Shown here one piece after another: positions 23,988-43,800 of a DNA stretch of 64,000 nt (position 1 is its first letter; every line of letters begins with the position of its first letter). The notes beneath the pieces were generated by a model. The model did not search any database. It saw only the letters and a program-made list of their open reading frames with translations, and was not told the DNA's origin. This stretch comes from Phycisphaerae bacterium (lineage in GTDB: Bacteria > Planctomycetota > Phycisphaerae > Sedimentisphaerales > SM23-30): contig JAEIOG010000013.1 in NCBI GenBank assembly GCA_016342495.1, forward strand, positions 1 to 64,000, in the 5' to 3' direction. Position numbers and translations under genes: made by a program.

Positions 23988-26900
23988 TTATTGCGACAAT
24001 AATGTATCCAGAACATCTTGGGTTACTTTAAAAACAGTGCCATGTCGAGTTCCATTGGGGAAGGATATTTCACTTCTTCTACCAGTCCAGGTTTCCAGAT
24101 CGATTGATGATTGACCGCCCATATAGCCAGAGGTATAAGCATCATAATAACAAACCCATTCCTGCCCGACCTTGACAATTGATGGCCCTTCCACCCAGAG
24201 CCCCCCGGGTGTAATAGAAGACGAATGCGGCACATCGTAAGGGCCTGCAGCATTTTCACTAAAGGTAATAAGAATATTCTTACCGCTGCTTCTTTCATCT
24301 TTCAGGACCAAGGCATAGCGGTCTCGGTCTTTGGCAATGAAACCATCAATACAGCTAAATCCAGGATCGTATAGTAATGCGGTGTCTGTATAGGTCACGA
24401 AGTCCTCTGTAGTAATATAATAGATACGATGATCATTAGTAGAACCACTGGTAATCGTCGAAGACCAGAATACCAGATATTTACCTGTAGCATCATCATA
24501 AAATATTTCCGGTGCCCATGTATTATAGACATACGAAGCATCTTCCATCACAGACAGATATTTCTGTTCAGACCAGTTGATGAGGTCTGTTGAATGTGCA
24601 ATGCCAATGCCGTTATCAGTCCAACCGGTAGTCCAAACCATGTGGAACATTCCATCGGGGCCCTGGCAAATACTTGGGTCCCGCATCAGTTTACTGCCAA
24701 CATTAGGAGTTACAAATGTCGTGTTGTCCTTCAAAACATTAAAAGATAATCCATCATCACTATAAGCCAGATGCAGGCCATCGCCGTTGCCCTGGAAGTA
24801 ACTGTATAAATACTTGGTTTTGTGAGGTTGAGTTGTTTTGACTGTCACTACACCAGCTGAATACGCTGGCATGACAAACCGGATAACCTGACCTTTGAGA
24901 CCAACCATTTTGGCCTGAACATTTACCGCATCCGGATTTGATATGGTATTTCGGGTATAGAGATCTCCTGGTGCAACAAATTGCATAATGGCTGAATCGG
25001 CAACAAATGAATCATCAAGTTCAAACTCTACAGATTTATCGGTAGAATCTGGATTGACAATTTGAATGTACAGCGTTTTGGCATCATCAGAAAGTGTGGA
25101 AACAACGTTCATATCCGTGTCAGCACCAATGGTTTCTACACGGTTAGGAGCATAGTGATCATGCCACAATTTCATTACAACATAATTTGGAGCAGGGAAC
25201 CATCCGGTATGATCAAAATTAATAAATGAGTTGTCCCAGCTGGATGCAGATGTGTGTCGCAGAAACAGTGCCGGGCCACCCATTGTGAAATATTCACCCT
25301 GACGTTGATAAGCATTCAATATACCCCCGGCATATAAACCTGTACGCCAGTCTGTACTTTGAACATTCCATTCCGAATTATAAATTTCTAAATTCGGGTT
25401 GGCTGAGCTTGCAATATAGTTGGCCAGCCTGATGATCTTGTTTTCATCATTGATTGGGCCGGATTTGAAATTGTTCGGACTTTCATAATGATGAATACTG
25501 ATATAATCAATTATTGTCCCGCAATTATCTATTACAGTCGCGTCCCAGTTGAAATCATAACTGTTACTGCCACAGGCAATTACCTTGATAGGAACTCCCA
25601 GTTCGGTAGCTTTGGCCTGCATTGCCGGAACAAATGCCTTCAATTTATCACAATATGTAGATGCGTTCATCTGGAACCATACTTCATTGTCAATTTCCCA
25701 GTAGGTGATATTATACGGTTCCGGGTGGCCATTGGCTGCACGAAGTGCACCCCAGGTAGTATCAGCGTTACCATTGCAATATTCCATCCATTGCAATGCC
25801 AGTTCTATATATTCGGCTTCGACCTGAGGATTAGTCAGACTAATATGGGACCCAATATTAATTACAATAATCGGTTCAGAATCAATTGCTTCACACAACT
25901 CAAGAAATTCATCCGTACCGAAAGAATTCGTATCCTGATCATCCCAGATATAGTAAGGATATTTTTTACGTGTATGTTGGGGGCCAATGCCATCTTTCCA
26001 ATTGTATCGCTCTGCAAAATACCCCCCTGGCCAGCGTATTACCGGCGGATTTAGACCATGAACCGCATCCAGCAGGTCCGGCCGGAAGCCACCGGCGTCG
26101 ATAGCATCTTTGCCCATCATACTGACCTGGTCAATTTTGACATTACCGGCATCCAGAAGAGTAATCCGCAAAGAACCATCGTTTGTACTTGCAGTTGGTG
26201 TTATCGAGAATGGATACTCTTGCCAGTTCGAGGTCGGAGCCTCCAGCGTGGTTTGTCCCAAAACGTTAGTTCCATCAAGAAATTCAACATGAACTCCAGC
26301 TGGTGAGGAGCCTTTCATCCACAGCGAACCTTGATAATCCTGTTGAGTAAACTTAAAGTTATCCTGCTGTATTCCCATTGCATTACCATTAGCTACTATC
26401 TGAACGCTGTAGTCATCGTTTAGAGCATCGGTGCTCATCGAAGCTGAACCAGAACCGACAACAGTCCAGAATTTTGCTCCAAATGTGAGGTTTGGCACAG
26501 TTGGAAGACCGCTATAGAGGACAGTTGTACCGGTTAGATTTTTAACCTGGATATTGCGGAATCTCGCCTTGGTAGACCAGGTTCCTACTCCTACCGCCCC
26601 TGCTGAAATAGGATTGTCAATATCGGTATAATCAAAAATCTTAACATCATCCAGATAGGCTTTAAAATTATTTCCTTCACACAATATGCGAATATTGTAC
26701 CATTGGTCGGTATTGATGCTGCCGGTGATATGCGATGTAATAGTGCTTCGATTCCCATTTACTTCCTTTTGGATTGCATGTTGCGTGTTGCCCCAGCCAC
26801 CAATATTGAACCAATAGAAATTTTCACTGTCAGGAGCGCGGAATAGAATCAAAAACCCTTCACTGCCTTCTATTTTTTTGGCTTCAAGCGTTAATTCAAA

Positions 26901-28535
26901 ATCATTCCAGAGAGTATCGCCAAATTTCAGGTGAACATCTGTAGACAAACTTGATTGCACCAGTTCATCGCCTTCAATAGCCCATATTCCACCTTCGTTA
27001 TCAGTGATTTCAAAACTTCTATTCCAGATTAAATCACCCCACAGGCCACCATTGACAGAATTATAGATATGTTCCAGGAAATGACCGTAAATATTCTCAT
27101 CAATTCTGTTTAGAACCTTGGCGGTATTAATAAAGAATGGCTGATTAGACTTTTGAATTGAGCGGGCAAAAACGTTGGTGTCATAATTGAAAGTATCGAC
27201 CAGCCAATTTCTAAAAATTGATTCAAGTTCAAGAGGCTGTTCAGTATTTAGCCACAAATTCGCTAATATTGAGAAGTCCTCAAAATTAACCATGCAGTCC
27301 ATATTGAAATCTGAAACCAGGAAACCCCAGAGCCCACATGAATCATCACCGATATAGACCTTAATATCACGAATATTAATCTGGTTAAAATCGGGATCAT
27401 TACTTTCAGCCTTATGCTGAATCAGCGTAATCTGATCAAATGTAGCCTGTGAATCAGCCACTTGAATCGTTATGGTCTGGGGTTGATTCCAATTCTGATT
27501 GGTAAAAACAATATTTTCACTTTGCCCATTACCGTTGCCGACGCTTAGGCCTGCAGGCGGAGTGATAGTAATAACAACCTCATCTGATGGTTGCTCCAGT
27601 AAAACACAATCATAACTGTCGGTAAAAACTATGTCTCCGGAGTATAGAGTTGTTTTATTATCAGACTCAGTCAGAAATATTTTATCTCTTATAACAAATT
27701 GCTCCGGTATTAGAGCCGAATCAGAAATTGCCACGGCGTCGACAAGACCAAAAAACCTGTCAACATGATCATCACTCCACATGCCGCGTGCAACCGACCA
27801 TGTACCATAGCCCAAAGCCAGTGAAGTATCCGCACTGGTCCCTGTTATATCCAAACTGCCGATTTCAGTATTGTCAAGGTAAAGCCGCAGCCATGTCCCA
27901 TTACTAACCGCAGCTGCATGATACCATTTGTCTGTCACCAGACCGGCAGCTACCTGAACCGAATGCCTAATGCCGGAAACATCAATATATTCAATTGCAA
28001 GATCAGTTCCTTGAGTCTTAAAATACAGTGCAGCTGCGCTGCTGGAACTGCCGCCAACATATCTGCCATCTCGACCGACAAACGTTCTGTTTGATGATAA
28101 ATCTGAAGATTTAAAAACAGTTTCAATTGTCCATGCCTGAGGTGTTATCTTTTCAGCGTCAATACCAGTGATATATGGATTGTATTTTGAATCAGTTCCT
28201 GCCGCTGGCCAACTATTGGCAGCCGTCATTGCATAGTTTCCCTTATAACTGTCCGATGTCCACTTCATCCAGGAACTTGTCCAGACAGTCAGGTGATTGC
28301 CATTTCCAGATAGGTCAGCAGAGCTAATAACAAAATCATCGGTATCCATAGCTCCATCACCATCCAGGTCGGCACGTGAGCCATTTCCCGGCATATATGC
28401 TCCATCTGAAGCGTTTGCATCTGCCATATCCCAGTATGCGACGATTGAAGCTCTAAGAGAAGTCGACATAAAAACGATCAGCAAACAACATAGTGCCATA
28501 AATGTCTTAGAATTTAATGATTGTATATATTTCAT
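23988..28535 (-). CDS. multimodular arabinan-degrading enzyme: LamG, dockerin-like, GH51 and GH43 modules
   Basis: A 1515-aa secreted protein. A signal peptide (1-29) is followed by a LamG/concanavalin-like module (32-280) with an acidic D-x-D-x-DG loop at 56-67, a beta-sandwich near 285-398, and a dockerin-like segment at 400-430 (DFNMDCMVNFEDF). The GH51 alpha-L-arabinofuranosidase (465-1235) has acid/base E951 (IDNEVW) and nucleophile E1055 (IYNSEW). A concanavalin-like insert interrupts it at about 530-645. A GH43-type propeller (1240-1515) has D1286 (MRDP), E1343 (WAPE), D1397 (CIDG) and E1449 (VEGP). It likely releases L-arabinose from arabinan or arabinoxylan outside the cell. It is convergent with the XPB module. 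Confidence 0.9.
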   Translation of the reverse strand: MKYIQSLNSKTFMALCCLLIVFMSTSLRASIVAYWDMADANASDGAYMPGNGSRADLDGDGAMDTDDFVISSADLSGNGNHLTVWTSSWMKWTSDSYKGNYAMTAANSWPAAGTDSKYNPYITGIDAEKITPQAWTIETVFKSSDLSSNRTFVGRDGRYVGGSSSSAAALYFKTQGTDLAIEYIDVSGIRHSVQVAAGLVTDKWYHAAAVSNGTWLRLYLDNTEIGSLDITGTSADTSLALGYGTWSVARGMWSDDHVDRFFGLVDAVAISDSALIPEQFVIRDKIFLTESDNKTTLYSGDIVFTDSYDCVLLEQPSDEVVITITPPAGLSVGNGNGQSENIVFTNQNWNQPQTITIQVADSQATFDQITLIQHKAESNDPDFNQINIRDIKVYIGDDSCGLWGFLVSDFNMDCMVNFEDFSILANLWLNTEQPLELESIFRNWLVDTFNYDTNVFARSIQKSNQPFFINTAKVLNRIDENIYGHFLEHIYNSVNGGLWGDLIWNRSFEITDNEGGIWAIEGDELVQSSLSTDVHLKFGDTLWNDFELTLEAKKIEGSEGFLILFRAPDSENFYWFNIGGWGNTQHAIQKEVNGNRSTITSHITGSINTDQWYNIRILCEGNNFKAYLDDVKIFDYTDIDNPISAGAVGVGTWSTKARFRNIQVKNLTGTTVLYSGLPTVPNLTFGAKFWTVVGSGSASMSTDALNDDYSVQIVANGNAMGIQQDNFKFTQQDYQGSLWMKGSSPAGVHVEFLDGTNVLGQTTLEAPTSNWQEYPFSITPTASTNDGSLRITLLDAGNVKIDQVSMMGKDAIDAGGFRPDLLDAVHGLNPPVIRWPGGYFAERYNWKDGIGPQHTRKKYPYYIWDDQDTNSFGTDEFLELCEAIDSEPIIVINIGSHISLTNPQVEAEYIELALQWMEYCNGNADTTWGALRAANGHPEPYNITYWEIDNEVWFQMNASTYCDKLKAFVPAMQAKATELGVPIKVIACGSNSYDFNWDATVIDNCGTIIDYISIHHYESPNNFKSGPINDENKIIRLANYIASSANPNLEIYNSEWNVQSTDWRTGLYAGGILNAYQRQGEYFTMGGPALFLRHTSASSWDNSFINFDHTGWFPAPNYVVMKLWHDHYAPNRVETIGADTDMNVVSTLSDDAKTLYIQIVNPDSTDKSVEFELDDSFVADSAIMQFVAPGDLYTRNTISNPDAVNVQAKMVGLKGQVIRFVMPAYSAGVVTVKTTQPHKTKYLYSYFQGNGDGLHLAYSDDGLSFNVLKDNTTFVTPNVGSKLMRDPSICQGPDGMFHMVWTTGWTDNGIGIAHSTDLINWSEQKYLSVMEDASYVYNTWAPEIFYDDATGKYLVFWSSTITSGSTNDHRIYYITTEDFVTYTDTALLYDPGFSCIDGFIAKDRDRYALVLKDERSSGKNILITFSENAAGPYDVPHSSSITPGGLWVEGPSIVKVGQEWVCYYDAYTSGYMGGQSSIDLETWTGRRSEISFPNGTRHGTVFKVTQDVLDTLLSQ

Positions 28536-28640
28536 ATAAAGATATTTCCCATTCAGTTTGATGGCGTAATGCCCAAACTATGTTGGCTAAGATTGATTTA
28601 AGGGAACCTTAAGATTAAAAAGTCGCTACCCTCTGGTTCT

Positions 28641-28687
28641 AATAAAAAAGCAGGTTCCCGGATAGCCTGATAGATATCCGGAAACCT
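28641..28687 (-). terminator. rho-independent terminator after the LamG-Ig-LamG gene
   Basis: The stem AGGTT-C-CCGGATA/TATCCGG-A-AACCT, with one mismatch, lies at 28652-28687; on the minus strand it is followed by CTTTTTTATT (28641-28650). It is 26 bases past the stop at 28713 and separates that gene from the GH51-GH43 gene. Confidence 0.85.
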
Positions 28688-28712
28688 TGAAGTCTTTGGA
28701 AAATTTCCAATT

Positions 28713-30995
28713 TTAAGGAGCATAAATACGGTTGCTATCCATCCATGTTGCTACAAAGACCGCAAAATCATTAAGATCAATCTGACAATCTTCATTAAAG
28801 TCATAAAGCAATTCTGGAATGTCTTTATTACAAATCCAACCACCTGCAATAGCAAGATAGTCCTGAGCGACCTGAACTGAATCCAGAGCATAATTATAGA
28901 TCTTTAGTTCATCAATCAAGCCATCAAATTCAGGATCATTATCATATTGGGATTTGCCAATATAGTTCAAAACTGCACCGACATCAATCGGATCAAAGAT
29001 AATACCTGCATTGGTGGCTACAAGTTCGCCATTACGATATAAACGGCCCGTATCACCAGAAACCGTAACTACTACATGATACCATGTATTAGTAGAAAGC
29101 CATGTGCTATTCAGTTGCTGCTCTGCACTGTTTACTCTCATCGTGAAACGTAAATTGCCACTACCGTTATCACCAGTCAGGAACAAATGATCGGCCGGGC
29201 CATTACCAAAATCAAAGATGCGACTCCATGCGTTAACGCTCTTTATTTGAGCCCATGCAATGATGGTAATATCGGCGTAATCTACGACACCTGCAGGTAA
29301 CTGTGCGTACTGGCCATTGGGGTCTGTTGCATGATCAGCATTTGTAAGCTGTAAATATTTGCCTAATGAAGCGTCAAACGGTTCAAGATCAGCCAGAATC
29401 GGTAATCCTGCAGTCCCTTCTTGCATTAACACTGCATCAAAACCACCAACGATATCAGGTGTGACACTGTCGCTACCAACTGTGTTAATAACTTCAAATG
29501 GATAGTGACTTGTCATGCGCTGCAACATCGCACGCCCAGACTCACTTTCATCACTACCGGCAGTGTTTGAAACTACACAATAATAATATCCTTCATCATC
29601 CATATCAAAATCTAAAATAGTGAGGGTGTCGGTGTCTACACCTGTGTAATCATCTCCGTTAGAAAGTGGTTCAGGATCACCGGTTTTATACCACAGATAT
29701 GTATCAACATTTCTGCCAGTTACAGACAGAATAACATTAGGATTAGTTGTGGGGTCAACTGCGGTAAACGCGGGAACAACTGCGCTGACCTGAGCAGTAG
29801 CTGGCGAAGTGGTTAGAGAGCTGGTCCAACCGATAATATTATGAGAATCTACCTCGCTGATACTTGCCCCTGGAGTGAAAGACTGGGCATAACCATCCAG
29901 TACTTCTACGATAACCCAATTGTAGCTGGTTTCTGTAGCTAAATCCTGCACTGTGTAAGAACTATCGGGGTCGGTTGTGCCCGGGTCACCAGCAGAACCA
30001 ACATAGTACAGATTTGGGTCATCTGAGCCATCTGTCATAAAGATATACTGGTCAATAATATCTGGATTAACCGCATTTCCAGCGGCTGATGAATCGGCAA
30101 TCGCTTTCCAGCTCAGTGTAACATCCATAGTCTCATTTATAGCATCATATTCATCAATGTAACTGAAATCATAAGGAAACAGTACACATCCCGCAGAATT
30201 AGAAATTGCAACTTCGTCAACCAGGCCTAAAAATCGGTCCACATGATCATTAGCCCATTTACCTCGAGAAACAGTCCATATGCCTTCCCCTTTTCCCAAA
30301 GCTGTATCTGTACCAGTTGTTGTCAAATCGAGATTGCCAATTTGCTCGCCGTTCAAATATAACAGCAAAGTTGAACCATCACTTACTGCAGCCATGCTGT
30401 ACCAGGTGTCATTTAATAATCCAACAGCAACCTGAAGGTTGTGGCCAGTGCCGTCAACATCCCTGTATTCAATTGCCAGGTCCGTCCCACGTGTTGAAAA
30501 ATAAACTGCAGCTGCACCGCTTCCGCTTCCACCGACATTCGGGCCGTCACGACCAACAAATGTCTGATTTCCACCTAATGCAATGGGTTTAATAATAGCT
30601 TCAATTGTCCACTGGGCAGGCGTGATGGCTTCAGCATCAATTCCAGTGATATTTGGATTATATGCGGAATCAGTTCCTGTTGCTGGCCAATTATTATTGT
30701 TTTGCATACTGAAATCACCCATATAACTGTCTGCGTTCCAATGCATCCAGGAGCTTGTCCAGGCAGTCAGGTGATTACCATTACCGGAGATATCAATAGA
30801 ACTGATTCTGAAATCATCTGTATCCATAGCTCCGTCACTATCCAGATCAGTACGTTCACCATTACCTGGCATATCAATTCCGTCTGCAGCGCCGATATCG
30901 GCAAAATCCCAATGAGCAACTGTTTCGCCATAAACATTCATGTTAAAAGCTGCCAATAGAACGAAAGCACTAAATAATAATTTTTTCTTAATCAT
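28713..30995 (-). CDS. secreted LamG / Ig-like / LamG protein with dockerin-like tail
   Basis: A 760-aa extracellular protein with no enzymatic module that I recognise. The signal peptide (MIKKKLLFSAFVLLAAFNMN) is followed by a LamG-type domain almost identical to that of the next gene upstream, a fibronectin/Ig-like region (near 400-490, with DEGYYYCVVSNTAGS), a second unrelated LamG domain (about 495-715), and a C-terminal dockerin-like segment (LLYDFNEDCQIDLNDFAVFV). GGAG seven bases upstream supports ATG 30995 rather than the TTG at 31001. It may bind carbohydrate or scaffold the neighbouring enzymes; no substrate can be named. Confidence 0.88.
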   Translation of the reverse strand: MIKKKLLFSAFVLLAAFNMNVYGETVAHWDFADIGAADGIDMPGNGERTDLDSDGAMDTDDFRISSIDISGNGNHLTAWTSSWMHWNADSYMGDFSMQNNNNWPATGTDSAYNPNITGIDAEAITPAQWTIEAIIKPIALGGNQTFVGRDGPNVGGSGSGAAAVYFSTRGTDLAIEYRDVDGTGHNLQVAVGLLNDTWYSMAAVSDGSTLLLYLNGEQIGNLDLTTTGTDTALGKGEGIWTVSRGKWANDHVDRFLGLVDEVAISNSAGCVLFPYDFSYIDEYDAINETMDVTLSWKAIADSSAAGNAVNPDIIDQYIFMTDGSDDPNLYYVGSAGDPGTTDPDSSYTVQDLATETSYNWVIVEVLDGYAQSFTPGASISEVDSHNIIGWTSSLTTSPATAQVSAVVPAFTAVDPTTNPNVILSVTGRNVDTYLWYKTGDPEPLSNGDDYTGVDTDTLTILDFDMDDEGYYYCVVSNTAGSDESESGRAMLQRMTSHYPFEVINTVGSDSVTPDIVGGFDAVLMQEGTAGLPILADLEPFDASLGKYLQLTNADHATDPNGQYAQLPAGVVDYADITIIAWAQIKSVNAWSRIFDFGNGPADHLFLTGDNGSGNLRFTMRVNSAEQQLNSTWLSTNTWYHVVVTVSGDTGRLYRNGELVATNAGIIFDPIDVGAVLNYIGKSQYDNDPEFDGLIDELKIYNYALDSVQVAQDYLAIAGGWICNKDIPELLYDFNEDCQIDLNDFAVFVATWMDSNRIYAP

Positions 30996-31127
30996 AATCA
31001 ATCTCCAAGATAAAATTTATGCAATATTGAAGCAACGAACCACAGAGTTGTCACAATCAATATACTAAGATATTTTTGATATCTGTTTTTTCTAATTTCA
31101 TAAGCTTTATGAGTTGCAGTTATTTTT

Positions 31128-31167
31128 AGTTATTATGCTGACAGTAAAGGCCATCAGCATAATAACT
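31128..31167 (-). terminator. perfect 14-bp hairpin downstream of the LamG-PEP-CTERM gene, no U-tract
   Basis: AGTTATTATGCTGA at 31128-31141 pairs exactly with TCAGCATAATAACT at 31154-31167 across 12 bases. It lies 43 bases past the stop of the PEP-CTERM gene. On the minus strand it is followed by AAAAATAAC rather than T residues, so it is not a canonical intrinsic terminator. Confidence 0.5.
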
Positions 31168-31209
31168 GACATAAGTTTGAAAACTTTTCTATAATAACCA
31201 AGTTAACTG

Positions 31210-32100
31210 TTATTTACGTTTTCTAATCATAGCCAGAGAACCCAGGCTCAGTAGAACCAAAGTTGCAGGTTCCGGAACCACAAATGTTTCTGGAGCTAAC
31301 GCTTCATCAGAAATCGCAACTTCGTCAACTAAACCAAAGAAACGATCCACATGACTAGTGCTCCACTTGCCACGTGATATAGTCCAAATGCCTTCACCTT
31401 GCCCCAAAGCAGTATCCGTACCGGTTGTTGTCAAATCCAGAGTTGTGCTTTGTAAGGTGCCATTTATGTACAATGACAATGTTGAACCATCACTTACTGC
31501 AGCCAAGCTATACCAAATATCATTGGATAATCCAGCATCGATCTGAAGATTATGCCCGGCGCCATCAACATCTCTATACTCGATTGCCAGGTCTGTGCCG
31601 CGAGTTGAAAAATAAACTGCCGCGGCACCACTGCCACTGCCACCAACATTAGGGCCGTCACGACCGACAAATGTCTGGTTTCCGCCCAAAGCGGTAGGTT
31701 TGATAACAGCTTCAATTGTCCACTGAGCCGGAGTGATCGCTTCAGCGTCAATCCCAGTAATATATGGATTATAGGCAGAATCAGTTCCTGCTGCTGGCCA
31801 ATTGTTGTTGTTTTGCATACTGAAATCACCCATGTAACTGTCTGCGTTCCAATGCATCCAGGAGCCTGTCCAGGCAGTCAGGTGATTGCCGTTGCCGGAT
31901 AGGTCAGTAGAGCTGATCCTGAAATCATCAGTATCCATTGCTCCATCACTATCCAGATCAGCGCGTTCTCCATTACCTGGCATATTTGCCCCATCGATAG
32001 CACCGACATCAGCAAAATCCCAGTGAGCAATGGTAGTACCATAAGCATTCAAGCCCATCATCGCTAATAACACAATACTTACTTTTAACATCATTTTCAT
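31210..32100 (-). CDS. secreted LamG-domain protein with PEP-CTERM sorting tail
   Basis: A 296-aa protein: a signal peptide (MKMMLKVSIVLLAMMGLNAYG), one LamG-type domain (WDFADVGAIDGANMPGNGE... to VDEVAISDE) carrying the acidic DLDSDGAMDTDD loop, and the C-terminal tail VPEPATLVLLSLGSLAMIRK. The tail is a classic PEP-CTERM: VPEP, a hydrophobic helix, then basic residues. PEP-CTERM proteins are processed by exosortase in organisms that make exopolysaccharide; no exosortase gene is in this window. GGAGG six bases before ATG 32100 fixes the start, although the frame is open to 32145. An operator-like block lies about 230 bases upstream. Confidence 0.93.
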   Translation of the reverse strand: MKMMLKVSIVLLAMMGLNAYGTTIAHWDFADVGAIDGANMPGNGERADLDSDGAMDTDDFRISSTDLSGNGNHLTAWTGSWMHWNADSYMGDFSMQNNNNWPAAGTDSAYNPYITGIDAEAITPAQWTIEAVIKPTALGGNQTFVGRDGPNVGGSGSGAAAVYFSTRGTDLAIEYRDVDGAGHNLQIDAGLSNDIWYSLAAVSDGSTLSLYINGTLQSTTLDLTTTGTDTALGQGEGIWTISRGKWSTSHVDRFFGLVDEVAISDEALAPETFVVPEPATLVLLSLGSLAMIRKRK

Positions 32101-32529
32101 CTTCAACCTCCATGGTTTAATTAAATTTACATAACAAATCTTCACATTAAAAATAAAACACGATTATTGTATTTTCTCCTTTCTCTAATATTAAAAAAAC
32201 AATTCAAAATTTCATTGTCTCTGTTTTTGACTATTACATGAGTAGTCCTGAATTGTGGTTCAATTGTGTAGCCTTACATATCTTGATAAAACAAATTTAA
32301 CACAAATAAACAAATAATTCCAAACCATTTGACACCTAAATTTAACCATTTTGCGACAAAAACACCCCGTACCTTCTATAAAGACTAAAACCTGGGGATA
32401 TTTTCGGGGGTAAATATTTGTTTGCTTATAGAAGTAATATGAGAAAATGGGTCGGAAATTTTTATTGAAGGGAGAATGAAAAAAAAGCAAATCGGCCCTT
32501 TATCGTCTGGAAAACAGAGGCAGGTTTAC
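32101..32529. other. long intergenic leader of the LamG-PEP-CTERM gene
   Basis: About 430 AT-rich bases between the regulator's 3' end and the PEP-CTERM gene, both on the minus strand. It contains one strong copy of the shared operator block at 32331-32359. I saw no gene in the rest. The long stretch between operator and start codon (about 230 bases) leaves room for a structured leader, but no riboswitch class was recognisable. Confidence 0.5.
32331..32359 (-). promoter_or_regulatory. operator-like block upstream of the LamG-PEP-CTERM gene
   Basis: On the minus strand this reads TTGTCGCAAAATGGTTAAAT and then diverges. The 19-nt core (32341-32359 on the plus strand, TTTAACCATTTTGCGACAA) matches the blocks at 46143-46188 and 51335-51380 at all 17 fixed positions. 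The downstream ACAC of the other copies is not conserved here. Confidence 0.7.
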
Positions 32530-33684
32530 TCAGTCATTAATACGCATTGATCTGCGGAATTGCAAGGGGCTCAGACCGGTTGCATTTTTAAAGTAGCGGG
32601 AGAAATGTTCCGGGTCAGTAAAACGGATGTGCTTGGCAATATTACAAATCGAATCATTGCTGTTCAAGAGCATTTTCTTTATCATTTTAATTCTAAGCTC
32701 TTGAATCTCTTTATTAATGGTTCTTTTGAAATATTTTCTAAACCGTCTTTCAAGCTCTCGGCGGGACAAACAGGTAACATCTACAACATCCTCAACCTGT
32801 ATCGGTTTGGGATAATTCTTTCTTAAAAAAATGATTGCATTTATGATTTCCTTATCATCAATAGCAAAAATATTTGTGGATTGTCTAACTGCAATATCAG
32901 TGGGTTCAACATCAATAATCTCATGCTCAGTCGTATCCTGCATTAATTGATCAAGGTGTTGGGCGGCTAGAAAGCCTGCCTTTTCAAAATTGAGTTCGAT
33001 ACTCGACAAAGGCGGTGAAGACAGGTTGCATATAAGTTCATCATTATCAACACCCAGAACCGCTACTTCCTCTGGAACACTTAATCCTGCAATTTTACAG
33101 GCTTCCAGAATGGAAATAGCACGGTCATCATTACAGGCAAAAATACAAACCGGACGCGGTAACTCTTTTAGCCAACTGGTTATATTTTTTCTGCCCGCTT
33201 CGTTTTGATATTTACTATCAACGCCCTCTTTATATTCATAAATATTGCTAACACCCTTATCTGCCAAGGTTTGAGCGTAACCTTGAAGTCGCTTTTGGGA
33301 CCATGACAATCCCTGAAAACCACAGAAACCAAAATCACGGAAACCTAAACCCAAAAAGTATTCCGCTGCCATTTCACCAATCATCAGGGAAGCCGTTACG
33401 ATTGTGGACGTTTGAGGAATGAATTCGCGCTGGGTGTCGTTAATAACAATGGGTTTTTTTGATTTTAATATGTTTTCTGTTTTAATCGCATCTCTGGCAA
33501 GAATACCATCGATATTTTCCATGTTATACCAGGAACTCATTTCAGGGATTATGTCAGGAAGATAATCGGGTGGCTTGATAAACACCTGCCAATTTGTAAA
33601 TGCGGAGGTGTATTTTTCTACGCCAACAAGAAATTTTCTTCCAGAAGCTCTGGATGTATCAACAATTATCAAGACATTTTTCAT
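32530..33684 (-). CDS. XylR-type transcriptional regulator (sugar-binding domain plus AraC HTH), probable L-arabinose regulon regulator
   Basis: A 384-aa DNA-binding regulator. Residues 1-270 form a LacI/periplasmic-binding-type sensor (MKNVLIIVDTSRASGRKFLVGVEKY, FGFCGFQGLSWSQKRLQGY, VAVLGVDNDELICNLSSPPL). Residues about 282-384 form an AraC double helix-turn-helix (VEDVVDVTCLSRRELERRFRKYF, ICNIAKHIRFTDPEHFSRYFKNATG). This is the layout of E. coli XylR. It is divergent from araB-araD-araA across 276 bases, and an operator block lies 15 bases upstream of its start codon, suggesting autoregulation and arabinose as inducer. Both roles are inferred from context. Confidence 0.9.
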   Translation of the reverse strand: MKNVLIIVDTSRASGRKFLVGVEKYTSAFTNWQVFIKPPDYLPDIIPEMSSWYNMENIDGILARDAIKTENILKSKKPIVINDTQREFIPQTSTIVTASLMIGEMAAEYFLGLGFRDFGFCGFQGLSWSQKRLQGYAQTLADKGVSNIYEYKEGVDSKYQNEAGRKNITSWLKELPRPVCIFACNDDRAISILEACKIAGLSVPEEVAVLGVDNDELICNLSSPPLSSIELNFEKAGFLAAQHLDQLMQDTTEHEIIDVEPTDIAVRQSTNIFAIDDKEIINAIIFLRKNYPKPIQVEDVVDVTCLSRRELERRFRKYFKRTINKEIQELRIKMIKKMLLNSNDSICNIAKHIRFTDPEHFSRYFKNATGLSPLQFRRSMRIND

Positions 33685-33960: not shown

Positions 33961-35730
33961 ATGTATTACACAATAGGATTAGATTTTGGCACAAACTCAG
34001 TGCGATGTCTGTTAGTATCGACAACAGACGGCCATGAACTGGGGACCGCAGTGTATGAATACGAGTCTGGGCTATCCGGGATATTGCTGGACCCTGCTGA
34101 TCATAATCTGGCACGTCAGAATCCTGCTGACTACCTGAAAGGGATGGAACAGTCAATTCGGGGAGCAATTATTCAGGCCAGAACAACTGACACTTCTTTT
34201 AATTCCAGCCAGATAGTCGGAATAGGAGTTGACACTACCGGTTCGACTCCTATCCCAGTAGACGCAAAAGGAATGCCTTTAGCTCTCAAAGAAGAATTCT
34301 TACAAAACCTCAATGCGTATGTATGGCTTTGGAAGGACCACACCTCACATACAGAAGCAAACGAAATTACCGAACTTGCCCAGAAGGAACACCCGGAATA
34401 CCTGGCCAAATGCGGTGGGATTTATTCATCCGAATGGTTTTTCAGTAAAATTCTGCATTGCCTGCGGACTGATCCAGAGGTTTACGATGCGACATATACG
34501 TGGGTTGAACATGTTGATTGGATTACTGGGGTTTTAACGGGAACAGAACACCCAGATACACTTAAACGCAGTCGCTGTGCTGCTGGTCATAAGGCTTTAT
34601 TCAATAACGCCTGGGGTGGCTATCCGGCTAAAGATTTTTTAGCTAAGCTCGACCCAAAATTGGCATTGTTGCGTGAAACTTTGCCTGATGAAACATCTAA
34701 TGTAAATGAAACAGCAGGATATCTAACAGAAGACTGGGCAGTAAAACTGGGGCTTAAAACCGGGATTCCTGTAGCAATGGGGGCATTTGACTGTCATCTG
34801 GGTGCCATTGGAGCCGGTGTAAAACCGGGGACAATGGTAAAGGTGCTGGGAACCAGTACCTGTGACATTATGGTTTCGGACACATCCAGTCCACTGGAAG
34901 ATATTCCCGGTGTATGCGGAATAGTAGAAGGCTCTGTGCTGCCGGGTTATTTCGGGATTGAAGCGGGGCAATCGGCAGTTGGAGATATTTTCAACTGGTT
35001 CGTAAATCATATTCAACCAGGCGGCAAGCGATCAGGTTCGCATGAAACACTTACCAGAAAAGCAGCCAGACTTATGCCCGGGGAATCCGGTTTACTGGCC
35101 CTTGACTGGAACAATGGCAATCGAACAGTCCTGGTAGACCAGCGATTGAGTGGTTTACTTTTAGGCCAGACACTGCATACCAAGCCGGAAGAAATTTACC
35201 GGGCCCTGATTGAAGCGACAGCTTTTGGCGCTTTAACCATAATCAAGCGAATCGAAGAATATGGCGTAATCATCGATGAAGTAATTAATTGCGGTGGAAT
35301 TGCCGAAAAGAACCCCCTGCTTATGCAGATTTATGCTGATGTGACCAATCGTGAAATGAAAGTATCCCGTTCGAGCCAAACCTGTGCCCTGGGCGCAGCA
35401 ATGTCAGCTGCGGTAGTGGCAGGCAAACAAGCTGGCGGGCATGATAATTTCACCGATGCCCAGACCACTATGTCAGGAGTGCATAAAAAAACGTATAAAC
35501 CAAACGTTGAAAATCATAAAATATATCAACAGCTTTATAGCCTCTATAAACAACTTCATGACGCCTTTGGCAATGCCGATAATTCTACTGGCCTGTATAA
35601 TGTCATGAAGAACCTGCTTGAAATTAAAGAAGTATCATTAAAACCTGCCACTGGCAATAAAGTTAAAAAGCCTATACTGAATGTCACAGAAATACTGTCT
35701 GAAAACACCGAATCGAAAGCAATGAGGTAA
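33961..35730 (+). CDS. araB: L-ribulokinase
   Basis: FGGY-family carbohydrate kinase that phosphorylates L-ribulose to L-ribulose 5-phosphate. The N-terminus MYYTIGLDFGTNSVRCLLVS is the phosphate-1 motif of ribulokinases; GVGVDTTGSTPIPVD-like sequence (GIGVDTTGSTPIPV), MGAFDCHLGAIGAG and the C-terminal NCGGIAEKNPLLMQIYADV follow. Length (589 aa) is close to the family norm. It starts the araB-araD-araA-symporter-dehydrogenase operon; the next start lies three bases beyond its stop. Control is probably by the divergent XylR-type regulator. Confidence 0.96.
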   Translation: MYYTIGLDFGTNSVRCLLVSTTDGHELGTAVYEYESGLSGILLDPADHNLARQNPADYLKGMEQSIRGAIIQARTTDTSFNSSQIVGIGVDTTGSTPIPVDAKGMPLALKEEFLQNLNAYVWLWKDHTSHTEANEITELAQKEHPEYLAKCGGIYSSEWFFSKILHCLRTDPEVYDATYTWVEHVDWITGVLTGTEHPDTLKRSRCAAGHKALFNNAWGGYPAKDFLAKLDPKLALLRETLPDETSNVNETAGYLTEDWAVKLGLKTGIPVAMGAFDCHLGAIGAGVKPGTMVKVLGTSTCDIMVSDTSSPLEDIPGVCGIVEGSVLPGYFGIEAGQSAVGDIFNWFVNHIQPGGKRSGSHETLTRKAARLMPGESGLLALDWNNGNRTVLVDQRLSGLLLGQTLHTKPEEIYRALIEATAFGALTIIKRIEEYGVIIDEVINCGGIAEKNPLLMQIYADVTNREMKVSRSSQTCALGAAMSAAVVAGKQAGGHDNFTDAQTTMSGVHKKTYKPNVENHKIYQQLYSLYKQLHDAFGNADNSTGLYNVMKNLLEIKEVSLKPATGNKVKKPILNVTEILSENTESKAMR

Positions 35731-35733
35731 AGC

Positions 35734-36423
35734 ATGCTTGAAGACCTTAAAAAACAAGTTTGCCAGGCCAATCATGAGCTTAAAGAGCATAATCTTGTAA
35801 TCTACAGCTGGGGCAATGTCAGCGGAATAGACCGCCAACAAGGTATTATTGCGATCAAGCCCAGTGGAATTGCTTACGATGATTTAACCCCAGGAAAAAT
35901 AGTTCTGGTTGATCTGGATGGTAAAAAAGTTGAGGGTGAGCTAAAGCCTTCTTCGGACACGCCAACACATTTGGAACTATATCGTCAGTTTAAGGATATT
36001 GGTGGCGTATGCCACACTCATTCGACTTATGCAACAATATGGGCTCAAAGCTGTCGGGGAATCCCTTGTTTTGGGACAACTCATGCGGATTATTTTTACG
36101 GGCCTGTACCAGTGACAAGTGAATTAACCAAAGAACAGATCGAGTCGAATTACGAATTGAATACCGGAAAAGTAATTATTGAAAGATTTGCGCAACTAGA
36201 TCCGTTGCAAGTCCCCGCGGTTCTTGTAGCCAACCATGGCCCGTTTGCATGGGGGGCCAGTACGTCTCAAGCGGTAGAAAATGCGGTGGTCTTGGAACAA
36301 ACTGCAAAAATGGCACTTGGCACGATAAGAATCAACCCAGACCAGCCAGCAATTTCAAAGGTTCTTCTGGATAAACATTTCTTACGCAAGCATGGTAAAA
36401 ATGCTTATTATGGTCAAAAATAA
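35734..36423 (+). CDS. araD: L-ribulose-5-phosphate 4-epimerase
   Basis: Class II aldolase/epimerase converting L-ribulose 5-phosphate to D-xylulose 5-phosphate. The zinc ligands are visible: HTHS in [16 protein letters not shown], and the third histidine in [12 protein letters not shown]. The substrate-binding motifs GNVSGID and [10 protein letters not shown] are also present. Length (229 aa) is typical. GAGG, formed by the end of araB, lies six bases before the ATG. The gene order B-D-A differs from the E. coli B-A-D order. Confidence 0.96.
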
Positions 36424-36443
36424 GAAAAGGAAAACACAGAATA

Positions 36444-37943
36444 ATGATTCCTGAATTAAAAAAATTGGAAGTATGGTTTATTACCGGAAGTCAACATCTT
36501 TATGGTGATGACACCCTCAAGCAGGTCAATGCTCATTCAAAAGAAATCGTGGGATATCTGGATGCCAACAAAAATATTGCCTGCAAAGTTATATTCAAGC
36601 CAGTAGTTACTACTTCTGATGAGATTACCAGGATTCTTATTGAGGCCAACACATCAACAAACTGTATCGGGGTAATCACCTGGATGCATACATTCAGCCC
36701 GGCCAAAATGTGGATTACGGGCCTAGGCATGCTGCAGAAACCTTTTGTTCATCTTCATACGCAGTTCAACCGGGATATTCCTTGGGACAGTATTGATATG
36801 GACTTCATGAATCTGAACCAGTCTGCCCATGGTGGCAGAGAATTCGGTTTTATCTGCAGTCGGCTAAGGAAGAACCGCAAGGTCATTGCAGGTCACTGGC
36901 AGGATGAAGATGTTGTCTCAAAAATGGACGTATGGATGAGAGCTGCATGCGCCTGGCATGACTGGCAAGGTATGAAAATTGCCCGTTTTGGTGACAATAT
37001 GCGTGAAGTGGCAGTCACAGAAGGAGATAAAGTCGAAGCCCAGAAGAAATTTGGCTACTCAGTCAACGGTTATGGGGTTAGTGACCTGGTTGCATTCATT
37101 GATAAAGTTACAGACAAACAGATTGACAAGCTGGTAACCGCCTACACGAATGAATACAAAGTGGAGCTGGACGCCCGGCAAATGGCCGGCGTAAAAGAAT
37201 CAGCCAGAATTGAAGCGGGGATGCGAGATTTTCTCGAAGAAGGCAACTTCAAAGCCTTTACAAATACATTCGAAGACTTACATGGCATGACCCAGCTACC
37301 GGGATTGCCAACCCAGCGTTTGATGGCTGATGGTTATGGCTTCGGCGCCGAAGGTGACTGGAAAACAGCCGCCCTGATTCGTGCAATGAAAGTGATGGCC
37401 AGCGGGCTAGATGGCGGGACTTCTTTTATGGAAGATTACACCTATCATCTCAACCCAAAAGGAATGAAAGTGCTGGGAGCCCATATGCTGGAGATTTGCC
37501 CATCAATTGCAGATGGTAAAGCTTCGCTTGAAGTCCATCCCCTGGGTATCGGCGGAAAAGCGGACCCGGCCCGGTTAGTATTCAATGTACCACAAGGCAA
37601 GGGGATTAATGTTTCGATGATGGATATGGGCAATCGTTTCCGGATGGTGACAAACCCATGTACGGTTGTTCCTCCAGACTCTGATATGCCGAAATTACCT
37701 GTTGCAAGAGTGCTTTGGCAGCCTATGCCCGAACTCAAAACCGCAGCCACCGCCTGGATACTGGCGGGCGGGGCTCATCACACAGGTTTCAGTATGGCCA
37801 TTACCAAGGAGCATATGGAAGACTTCGCAGAAATAGCAGGCATCGAATATTTATTAATTGATGAGGATACAAAAATATCAGATTTCAAAAAGGATATCCA
37901 AGTGAATGAAATTTATTACCTGCTTGCCAAAGGACTCGTTTAA
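36444..37943 (+). CDS. araA: L-arabinose isomerase
   Basis: Converts L-arabinose to L-ribulose using Mn2+. The family opening is [20 protein letters not shown], with the conserved [33 protein letters not shown] and [17 protein letters not shown]. Metal-site segments [13 protein letters not shown] and [10 protein letters not shown] carry the expected glutamates, and GAHMLEICP and [10 protein letters not shown] supply the histidines. The length of 499 aa matches the family. AAGGA precedes the start and the gap to araD is 20 bases, so the genes are surely cotranscribed. Confidence 0.97.
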
Positions 37944-38006
37944 TAAAACATAGTTTTGCTCGAACTGGTAACATATCGTTATTATAAACAAATTAAAAAG
38001 GACTAA

Positions 38007-39692
38007 ATGATGCATTGGATTGACTGGCTTGTTATTGGCGTGTATTTCATAGGTTTAATAGGTGTGGTATTCTGGTCTTCCAAGCAGCAGAAGACTTCCG
38101 AAGACTATTTTCTGGCCGGTCGTAATATTGGCTGGTTTGCAGTGGGTGCGTCCTTGTTCGCCTCGAATATTGGATCTGAGCATATCGTCGGTCTGGCCGG
38201 TCAGGGCACCAGTAGCGGCATGGCAATGGCACACTGGGAGCTTCATGCCTGGGTCATGATAATGCTAGCCTGGATTTTTGTCCCGTTCTATTATCGTTCC
38301 GGGGTGTACACCATGCCGGAATTTTTGGAAAGGCGTTTTAATTCAACCACACGCTGGATACTTTCGATCGTATCTTTAATTGCTTATGTAGTTACAAAAG
38401 TTTCGGTTACTGTTTATGCCGGGGCGATGGTATTTCAGGTATTGCTCCCGGATATAAGCCTTTTTGGGATAGGTCCATTCTGGTTAGGAGCAGTTTCAAC
38501 TGTTGTTTTGACTGGTCTATACACAGTATTTGGCGGTTTACGGGCAGTAGTCTATACCGACACCGCCCAGGCTCTGATATTGCTGGTCGGTTCCTTTTTT
38601 ATTACGTATTTCGGTTTAAAAGAGCTCGGTGGTTGGGGCGAATTACAGGAAGTGTGTCGCCAAAACGCTGACAGATTTGCCCTGTGGCGCCCTAACAGTG
38701 ACCCGGATTTCCCATGGCTTGGTATTCTGATAGCTTCTCCGGTTATTGGCATATGGTATTGGTGTACTGATCAGTATATCATTCAGCGAACTTTAGCTGC
38801 CAAAAACCTCACCAATGCCAGACGTGGTGCAATATGGGGTGGCTTCCTCAAGGTTTGGCCCGTTATGATTTTTCTGGTGCCGGGACTTATTGGTTATGCA
38901 CTTCATCAAAAAGGATTGATTTCCATCCCAATGAAAACAGGTGAAAATGGAACCTCAATAATCAATGGCGACCAGGTTTTCCCGACAATGGTAGCAACTT
39001 TGTTGCCTGTGGGGCTTAGAGGACTGGTGGTCGGTGGTTTGCTGGCAGCTTTGATGAGCTCGCTTTCTTCATTGTTTAATTCCTGCGCATCACTGTTCAC
39101 CATTGATATATACAAAAAAATGCGCCCGATGGCATCAGAAGCAATGCTGGTTCGTGTCGGACGAGTTGCAACGGGTGTGGTTGTTGGCCTTGGACTATTA
39201 TGGATTCCAATCATGCCTTTGATCGCCAAAGGTGGTCTGTATCAATACCTCCAAAGCGTACAAGGGTATCTGGCCCCGCCACTGACGGCAGTGTTCCTTT
39301 TGGGTTTGTTCAGTAAACGCATTAATGCTAATGGGGCAGTTGCAGGTTTAGTTATTGGCTTTTTCCTCGGTATTGCAAAATTGACAGTACAAGGGATGGC
39401 CGGAGCTGGTAAATTTGCCGAAGGTTCGACCCTTAAGGCGATTGGTGACTATAATTTCCTGTATGCCTCTGGCTGGTTACTAGCTATTAGCGTTGTCATT
39501 ATTGTAGTTGTGTCATTATTTACAAAAAAACCATCCGAAGAACAAATTGTCGGACTTACCTATGCTACTGCTACCGAAGAACAGAAAAGAGAAAACCGCG
39601 CGAGCTGGAATAAATGGGATGTAATTGGTTCTATTGTGGTATTAGGTTTGGTACTTGCAATGTATCTGTATTTTAGTTTCTGGTTAAAGTAG
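38007..39692 (+). CDS. sodium:solute (SSS/SGLT-type) sugar symporter
   Basis: A 561-aa secondary transporter with about 14 hydrophobic helices. SGLT-family features are the opening SKQQKTSEDYFLAGRNIGWFAVGASLFASNIGSEHIVGLAGQG, of which the FAGRN-like and GSEH elements are diagnostic of the sugar branch. Others are WIFVPFYYRSGVYTMPEFLERRF and ALMSSLSSLFNSCASLFTID (the sodium-site helix). Its place in the ara operon makes L-arabinose the likely cargo. AAGGAC five bases before ATG 38007 supports this start; ATG 38010 is the alternative. Confidence 0.93.
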   Translation: MMHWIDWLVIGVYFIGLIGVVFWSSKQQKTSEDYFLAGRNIGWFAVGASLFASNIGSEHIVGLAGQGTSSGMAMAHWELHAWVMIMLAWIFVPFYYRSGVYTMPEFLERRFNSTTRWILSIVSLIAYVVTKVSVTVYAGAMVFQVLLPDISLFGIGPFWLGAVSTVVLTGLYTVFGGLRAVVYTDTAQALILLVGSFFITYFGLKELGGWGELQEVCRQNADRFALWRPNSDPDFPWLGILIASPVIGIWYWCTDQYIIQRTLAAKNLTNARRGAIWGGFLKVWPVMIFLVPGLIGYALHQKGLISIPMKTGENGTSIINGDQVFPTMVATLLPVGLRGLVVGGLLAALMSSLSSLFNSCASLFTIDIYKKMRPMASEAMLVRVGRVATGVVVGLGLLWIPIMPLIAKGGLYQYLQSVQGYLAPPLTAVFLLGLFSKRINANGAVAGLVIGFFLGIAKLTVQGMAGAGKFAEGSTLKAIGDYNFLYASGWLLAISVVIIVVVSLFTKKPSEEQIVGLTYATATEEQKRENRASWNKWDVIGSIVVLGLVLAMYLYFSFWLK

Positions 39693-40876: not shown

Positions 40877-43800
40877 TTATTCATTCATTTTAATTCGGAT
40901 CACCTGTACGGACATAGCGGGGATACAATAATCAAACTGTTTGTCAACACCAATTGTTTTGTTTACAGGGGCAATCGTATCAGGGTAGTTTATGGAATTT
41001 ATACCTTTCCTGCTACCGGTTAATAATGAAATTTTAGCAGAAGGAGCGACTGCTGATATTCCATCCAGAAGAACCTTGGCATCGACATCCTGTTCGGTAG
41101 GATTAACTAATTTTAAAACAATTTCATTAGTGCTATCATCTCTTGTTGTAGATACACTTATTTGAGGACCAGATTCGTGATAGTCATGTACCAACTTATT
41201 ATTCAAATAGCAACGAATATGACCAGGCGACAATTCAATTTTAATGTCATACCAAACATTATCCTGGACCCTGCCACCAGTCTGATCCAAAATAGTTTTC
41301 ATGCCATCTCTGGATATTTCTATCGCATGCTGGGTATTATTCCATCCACCAATATTCCACCAATAATAATTGTCGCTATTTTCATAACCAAAAACCACCA
41401 GAAAACCTTCATTGCCTTTGGTCTTTCTGGCTCTAAGTTCATAAGTGACGATTTGATCATTAAAGGCATTTGGAGAAATACTTAAAGCAGGTTCTTTATC
41501 GAAATCCAATTGCAAATACTGTTTGTCTTTATATTGGAAATTTCCTTGCAATACTTTCCATTTTTTAGGTTCTACGGCAAGATTATTAACTTTAACCTGC
41601 TCGATAACTATTGCGGTATTCCAGGTGCCGATACCTACCCCACCCTGAACCGTAGGCATTTTTTTTGCGAAGACATTCTCAACTTTGTTTTTCAAATAGA
41701 CATCCCCTTTGTTACAACTGAACATCTGCTGCACATAATAGTTAGGAGTCTTAACTAAATTTCTCTTATCAAACCAGATCATATTGGCCGCCCGCCACTG
41801 AGTATGATTGACATGAGCAAAAAGCGGGGCATAGCAAGCCATATCAACTATATCAGCATTGCGTTCAATTCCAGTCAGATAGGCGGCCTCAGAAATCGCA
41901 TTAAATAATTCATTACCCTGAGAAGCATATTCACCCACAAAAACCAAAGGGCCATTACGATCAAAATCATCAAAACGATTTTGATTTTGAATATACCATT
42001 CAGGGCTGTTATAATAGTGTTCATCTGAGCTATAAACGCCTAATTCCTTCATCTGATCATAGAGAGGAATTCCCTGACCTAAACCCGAGGTGCCTATAAT
42101 CTTAATCTCAGGGTATGCTTTGCCGATAGCCTTGACAAAATGAGGGAAACGCTCACGGCATTCTTTGGTATCATGCTCTTCATTACCCAAACAAATGTAT
42201 TCCAGACCAAAAGGCTCAGGATGACCCATTTGGGCTCTCAGCTTACCCCATTTGCTATTGATAGGACCATTGGCAAATTCTATCAGATCCGTACAATCAT
42301 CAATCCATTCCTGAAGCTGATCCATAGGAACCACCTGGAAAGGTCTGTTAAAACCGCAAGAAACTCCAACCGGCAATACCGGCAAAGGTGTAGCTCCGAT
42401 ATCTTCACAAAGTAGAAAATACTCGTAATAACCCAGACCATAGGTTTGATGATAACCCCAACGATTCCAGTTAGGCCTGCGTTGAGCAATATCACCAACA
42501 GTGTCTTTCCATCGATAGGCATTTTGCAGGCCACAGCCATGGGCAATACAGCCACCGGGGAAACGGAAGAATTTGGGTTTAAGATCAGCTAAAGCCTGGG
42601 CCAGATCTGGCCGTAAACCGTTTTTACGACCCTTAAAGGTTTTTTGGGGGAAAAGTGAAACAACATCCAGGAAAAGCCTGCCCTTGTCCTTAGTTGTAAC
42701 TGTCAGCCTTGCATCATCATCACTTTTATTAACCTTGATAACACCACTGTATTTCTTCCAGTCATCGCTGAGATGATCAATCTTCATTGAGCCATAAATC
42801 TCGCCATCATTGCCTTCTAATGCCACAATAACAGGTTCATTCATTCTGTCATCTAAATGTGAGGCATACAGGCTCACATCATAGCTTTCACCCTGATCAA
42901 TACGTATCCCATCATAGCCAAGATTTGCGATACCTACACCATCACCTGGATTATCAACATATACGACCAGGTAATTGAAATTATTCCGATTTAGTGGAAA
43001 ACTCTTTTCAACCTTAACACGACATTTACCTTCGCCTTTTTCAACTTTTTCCCAGGCGAACATCGGATTATATCGATCACTTGATTTATCACTTAAGCCC
43101 TCTCTGCCATCCAGATAAAAATATTCAAATGAGCGATTCTGAACCAATTCTGCATAGAGACCGCCATCAGCAGCAAAATTAATATCTTCAAAAAATAAGC
43201 CATAGAGGTTCGGGCTAAGCTTGGCCACCGGTTGATCGACATATACGTGGATATTTGTTGCAACATCCATTGAAGTTTTGGTAAGCATATCTGTTTTCTT
43301 TGCAGATAATTCAGATGTTTTCTTCTCATCTTGAGATGGATATTTTCCTAATAAAGTCTGTAGTTCATCATAGGAAATTGGGATCATACTACAGTGTTTT
43401 GCTCCTTTTGGTGTCGAGACTTTTATTTTATCAAATTTCACAAAATCAGCTGTCTGCCAGGCCTGCAGAGGACTATTAAATGGGTCGCCATAAACATACC
43501 ACTTATCCTGACCAGCCAACTTTATAACTTCAGGGCCTTCAGTAGGTTTAATCTCGTCTGAGAAAACAATTTTCCCATGCCCATCATTCGCAAAAGAATC
43601 TATTGATGGATCAAGACTATTTACAATAGATAATCGATTACCCATTTTATCTTTCACCTGGCCAGACTTATGAAAACCGTAATATTTATCACCATATTCT
43701 ACGATAGTCAGGTCGATATCATCAATTCCAATATCATAATAGACCTTAGAATCACTGGGTTTAATATTTTTCCAATCACTGGTTTTTAGATAATTAATAG

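Follow-up and report, generated by a model that had tools for sequence, protein, structure and literature searches.

A LamG-type head shared by an enzyme, an Ig–LamG protein and a PEP-CTERM protein at one locus of a Sedimentisphaerales bacterium: a possible locus-specific glycan address

Three adjacent genes in the window (the whole stretch of 64,000 nucleotides that was analysed) encode an enzyme, an Ig–LamG protein and a short PEP-CTERM protein that all begin with the same LamG-type head. This trio is one case of a pattern that recurs in two genomes, in which the head of a locus is found on an enzyme, on an Ig–LamG protein and often on an anchored protein. The trio is interpreted here as a matched-head set in which the shared head probably acts as a locus-specific glycan address, a reading that we hold at slightly better than even and in which glycan binding is putative. 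The observation made in the initial annotation was confirmed, whereas its interpretation, a tandem duplication followed by an exchange of tails, turned out to be half inverted and is supported in part only.

All three genes lie on the minus strand: gene A (23988–28535) encodes a GH51–GH43 enzyme, gene B (28713–31001) the Ig–LamG protein and gene C (31210–32145) the short PEP-CTERM protein. Each opens with a signal-peptide-like segment followed by a head of about 250 residues, which spans residues 29–282 of A (27690..28451, minus strand), residues 26–271 of B (30189..30926, minus strand) and residues 37–290 of C (31276..32037, minus strand). The heads of B and C are 85% identical as proteins and 81% identical as DNA, and the head of A is 65% identical to that of C and 64% identical to that of B at the protein level; the presence of one N-terminal module on three neighbouring genes is thus confirmed by position and identity. 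The description of two of the copies as nearly identical is overstated, as the third codon positions of B and C agree at only 60% and their dS is about 1.1. The Laminin_G_3 profile (PF13385) matched all three heads above its curated cut-off (E 1e-15 to 5e-13, with 3.8e-15 for C), the N-terminal part of the heads being poorly covered, and the domain matches of the tails bore out that the head is carried by an enzyme, a non-enzyme and a PEP-CTERM protein. In a search of the genome to which the window belongs (5.4 Mb), strong copies of the head were found only in A, B and C, together with one weak LamG match elsewhere (E 2e-4), so that the module is not equally common throughout the genome; LamG domains in general are abundant, with 119 Laminin_G_3 matches. 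One scan of the genome collection returned a single further locus (L034, the same contig as G003:C313), and kinship with L034 indicates that the host is a Sedimentisphaerales-like planctomycete.

The body of A (23988..27689, minus strand) comprises a beta region, a dockerin-like repeat, a LamG-like/3-keto-disaccharide-hydrolase-like domain, GH51 and GH43, in such an order that the head is followed by the beta region, which is short, then by the single dockerin-like repeat (residues 409–433; 27237..27311, minus strand; pattern match) and then by GH51. The GH51 assignment is given by an ASD1_dom match above cut-off (E 1e-13); the C-terminus matched the GH43-type arabinofuranosidase model NF052546 at E 8e-17, below the cut-off of that model, and a GH43 profile was above cut-off in an orthologue of A (L072:5033-9559). 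Another GH43–GH51 fusion lies elsewhere in the window (40877–45184); it has a CBM_4_9 domain and lacks the shared head. Orthologues of the A body, complete or nearly so and with 50–68% identity, were found in 14 further genomes of this order; synteny is kept in several of these, the heads there are not conserved and the orthologous bodies carry different LamG heads. In window comparisons of three orthologues with A, identity was mostly 40–75% along the body and mostly 10–40% along the head. The closest relative of the A body, in genome G117, is 68% identical to it, whereas the head of A scored 342 bits against the head of C and 82 bits against the head of the G117 enzyme.

The trees agree with these comparisons. 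In the head tree the three window copies make up one clade (support 100/98) nested in a larger clade of heads that belong mostly to PEP-CTERM proteins, and constraining all enzyme heads to one clade was rejected (lnL 219 lower, p-AU 1e-7). The tree of the bodies pairs A with the G117 enzyme as sisters (SH-aLRT 99), and a clade of A with the enzymes that share the head class of G117 was rejected (p-AU 0.003). Considering the conserved bodies with other heads and the tree tests together, the likeliest source of the head of A is the C/B lineage within the same locus. The proposed exchange of tails is therefore reversed for A: its body was conserved and its head replaced. The direction of exchange is less secure for B, given that heads of the larger class also occur on some constant-body proteins found elsewhere.

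The body of B (28716..30146, minus strand) consists of Fn3-like, Ig and LamG regions and a terminal single dockerin-like repeat (residues 734–758; 28728..28802, minus strand; pattern match), the profile matches in it being to Ig (I-set) and Laminin_G_3. Many proteins of the same genome have bodies that align with it at 23–30% identity, and a profile search recovered 37 full-length copies of this constant body, B included, in 28 loci, the heads of which are often unrelated between loci. The dockerin-like segments previously noted, internal in A and terminal in B, are both present, but each is a single repeat rather than a two-repeat dockerin and neither reached the Pfam Dockerin_1 profile, which matched 37 times in the genome. 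No cohesin was found by profile search of this genome (assembly 95% complete), and cohesins were above cut-off in eight of 161 genomes of the order. The single repeats leave a cellulosome reading unsupported, and a cellulosome scaffold role was ruled out by the absence of cohesin from the genome; the earlier view of B as a scaffold also gives way to its membership of the 37-copy family. At E 1e-50 the constant body was absent from three of four further genomes tested (G006, G099 and G067), and the system is therefore not universal.

Gene C carries, as the initial annotation had proposed, a PEP-CTERM sorting signal (31213..31278, minus strand; profile match) above cut-off (E 6e-5), with the C-terminal PEP motif, the hydrophobic stretch and the basic end all present. 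The genome contains one exosortase gene (PF09721, E 1e-50, contig C20) and 37 PEP-CTERM signals over cut-off, which, as sequence matches, support surface sorting of C. Next to the trio lie a XylR-like regulator with a periplasmic-binding-protein-like domain and an AraC-type HTH (32530..33684, minus strand) and, on the plus strand (33961..39692), genes for an FGGY kinase, a class II aldolase-family epimerase (araD-like), L-arabinose isomerase (araA) and an SSF symporter. Because these genes adjoin the trio, the locus looks like one for the use of an arabinose polymer. In a test for an operon, one terminator-like site was predicted in the trio region, inside B and not between genes, which is fewer than in shuffled sequences, and promoter-like sites were somewhat above the shuffle mean, which is uninformative.

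The synonymous distances (NG86) between the heads are about 1.1 for B–C (1.08) and 1.7–1.8 for A–B and A–C (about 1.8 for A–C), with dN of 0.09–0.29 (0.09 for B–C) and dN/dS of about 0.1–0.2. Judged from these rates, the sharing of the head is old and constrained, with synonymous sites near saturation. Recent gene conversion among the copies, which the initial annotation had raised for nucleotide comparison, was ruled out by dS values of about 1 or more; in one patch of B and C (head codons 45–90) third-position identity is nominally higher (25/30). Among the relatives aligned, only the three window heads have an insert of 11 residues that includes an EF-hand-like loop (DLDSDGAMDTDD), a distribution that fits a common local ancestry of these heads. 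The loop (LDGDGAMDTDD type) is predicted at 28344..28370 in A, 30822..30848 in B and 31933..31959 in C, all on the minus strand, and the window contains three instances of the motif coding for LDSDGAMD, as against none in 100 shuffles; we infer that it may form a calcium site. Across 24 heads of the class, residues such as GRD (125–127), H229, D231 and R232 are invariant, consistent with a putative functional site. An AlphaFold model of the head, built from four close sequences, had a pLDDT of 38, too low for use, and a PDB sequence search with the head gave no significant relative.

The matching of heads was examined further by asking whether the best match of each constant-body head among the ORFs of the fetched loci, which served as the background instead of the whole proteome, falls in its own locus (hits of at least 90 bits; locus labels shuffled 5000 times). 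Constant-body proteins were removed from the targets because whole-gene tandem duplication had been seen at one locus (L188). In the genome of the window, 12 of the 15 heads with such a hit had their best match within the same locus, and these 12 cover 11 of the 28 loci (permutation mean 0.63, maximum 5); 25 of the 37 constant-body proteins had no matched non-body neighbour in this best-hit test at 90 bits. The matched partners include PEP-CTERM, PhoD-like phosphatase, CotH/LTD, DUF3472 and GH51–GH43 proteins. In a closed genome from another family of the order (G033), which has 26 constant bodies and was examined in 19 fetched loci, 12 of 14 heads matched their own locus, in 11 of the 19 loci (permutation mean 0.71, maximum 4), the partner being a short PEP-CTERM protein at L180, L182, L184, L186, L189 and L193. 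At L182 one head, which has no Pfam name and is unlike LamG in sequence, is found on a PEP-CTERM protein, a constant-body protein and a BNR-repeat enzyme, so that, by its domain content, this locus repeats the trio of the window with a different head. The BNR enzyme (L182:12362-15736) contains two copies of the head of one neighbour and a stretch that matches the head carried by a second neighbour with a constant body. Where dS could be estimated, dN/dS of matched head pairs was well below 1, which shows constraint on each copy and not selection to match. Whole-gene tandem duplication was rejected as a general cause, having been seen among the pairs checked only at L188 of G033.

Several further arrangements were observed around these loci. 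Two duplicated loci of the genome of the window (L148 and L149, contigs C89 and C32) have constant-body genes in pairs, together with a pseudopilin and a 392-residue GntR-like regulator, and their head matches lie in the sister locus. Pseudopilin-like genes recur beside matched-head and sulfatase-like genes (L145–L164), CotH-kinase/lamin-tail proteins have a head matching their neighbours in two genomes (L163:1-5055 and L040:9366-13604), and one matched-head partner (L152:2-3145) has matches to the hydrazine synthase alpha middle domain (E 6e-11) and to Dockerin_1.

The cassette of PEP-CTERM, LamG–Ig and GH51 members is itself conserved. Two genomes (G039 and G029) have a short PEP-CTERM protein, a LamG–Ig–LamG protein and a LamG–dockerin-like–GH51 enzyme in the same order, a third (G010) has PEP-CTERM, LamG–Ig–LamG and GH51 members in a different order, and a fourth (G041) has a PEP-CTERM protein truncated where the contig ends, along with two Ig–LamG proteins and a full GH51–GH43 enzyme. 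Enzymes orthologous to A stand alone, without B or C, in G117, G082 and G090. A second type of cassette (L045–L050) combines an ECF sigma factor, an FecR/NPCBM protein, a LamG–PEP-CTERM protein and a LamG–Ig–LamG protein, with a GH43–LamG–LamG protein in most cases; several loci of the order carry an ECF sigma factor, an FecR-domain protein and sulfatases.

In the mechanism that we propose, the head common to A, B and C, a concanavalin/LamG-type domain with an EF-hand-like insert, would bind the substrate of the locus, here probably an arabinan-type glycan. C would be anchored at the surface by the exosortase of the genome, and the surface protein C, the capture protein B and the enzyme A would meet on the same polymer. 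Homologous exchange between neighbours together with selection for matching may maintain the set. Counting against this reading are the 25 of 37 constant-body proteins that lack a matched non-body neighbour, the orthologous enzymes that stand alone and the three genomes that lack the constant body.

The main rival, which we regard as rather unlikely, is that matched heads bind each other, so that the anchored C would capture B and A and stand in for a cohesin–dockerin pair; the choice between this and a glycan address, which we favour, is a matter of inference. The lack of cohesin despite 37 Dockerin_1 matches would suit head–head binding, as would heads that are matched inside loci and often unrelated between them, as expected for orthogonal assembly codes, but many heads belong to families usually deemed carbohydrate-binding or beta-sandwich (LamG, F5/8C and CBM96). 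Decidedly unlikely is a spread of the head by neutral recombination between tandem neighbours with no functional meaning: although neighbours are prone to exchange and the L188 set is a whole-gene duplication, sharing ends at the head while the tails remain distinct, dN is low in divergent pairs (dS from about 0.85 up to saturation), an unrelated head is found where the trio recurs, and the heads of the L182 enzyme match two different neighbours. A tandem duplication of a single gene with a subsequent exchange of tails, B being a scaffold, would account for three adjacent copies with different tails, but appears highly improbable given an A body that other genomes have inherited with different heads, a B body that comes from an independent 37-member family and a scaffold without a cohesin. 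Equally hard to credit is a ligand-free head serving as a structural spacer or secretion aid, which would fit the sheer number of LamG-type domains but not the invariant residues in 24 heads or the matching of heads within a locus.

Returning to the glycan address, a wider proposal is tentative and, in our estimate, somewhat doubtful: some Sedimentisphaerales may use a combinatorial secretion code, in which one interchangeable head of any fold is placed, locus by locus, on a small fixed set of bodies and assembles or aims that set. The bodies, just as tentatively, would be a PEP-CTERM anchor, an Fn3–Ig–LamG–dockerin-like protein and an enzyme. If true, such a code would amount to a system for glycan capture or self-assembly that differs from both SusCD loci and cellulosomes. 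These findings bear on how planctomycetes without cellulosomes unite enzymes, surface and polysaccharide, and matched heads offer a directly testable answer, namely that the repeated head names the ligand or partner of each locus; they would help to predict substrates and to group genes into systems from sequence alone.

A literature search, with most subscription papers outside its scope, did not find the matched-head pattern described. The heads resemble LamG/concanavalin A-like domains (PF13385), all three being above cut-off, and differ from them in the EF-hand-like insert confined to the window copies among those aligned. As in PEP-CTERM/exosortase sorting, there is a signal on C and one exosortase gene; what differs is that the head of the anchored protein is also present on a neighbouring enzyme and on a constant-body protein. 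Cellulosomes likewise comprise modular secreted glycosidases with dockerin-like repeats, and one scaffoldin-like protein has been reported in Limihaloglobus sulfuriphilus of the same order (PMC11557425), whereas A and B have single repeats in a genome without cohesin. Capture of whole polysaccharides at the surface is likewise proposed in the planctomycete pilin 'fishing rod' hypothesis (review PMC12078418, citing Boedeker et al. 2017), and pseudopilin genes occur in several loci here; the passages of that review on the hypothesis contain no description of matched heads. Finally, SusCD-type loci show a similar organization of a locus-specific regulator, a surface protein, an enzyme and a transporter, whereas in the model proposed here matched heads would stand in for a dedicated SusD-like protein.
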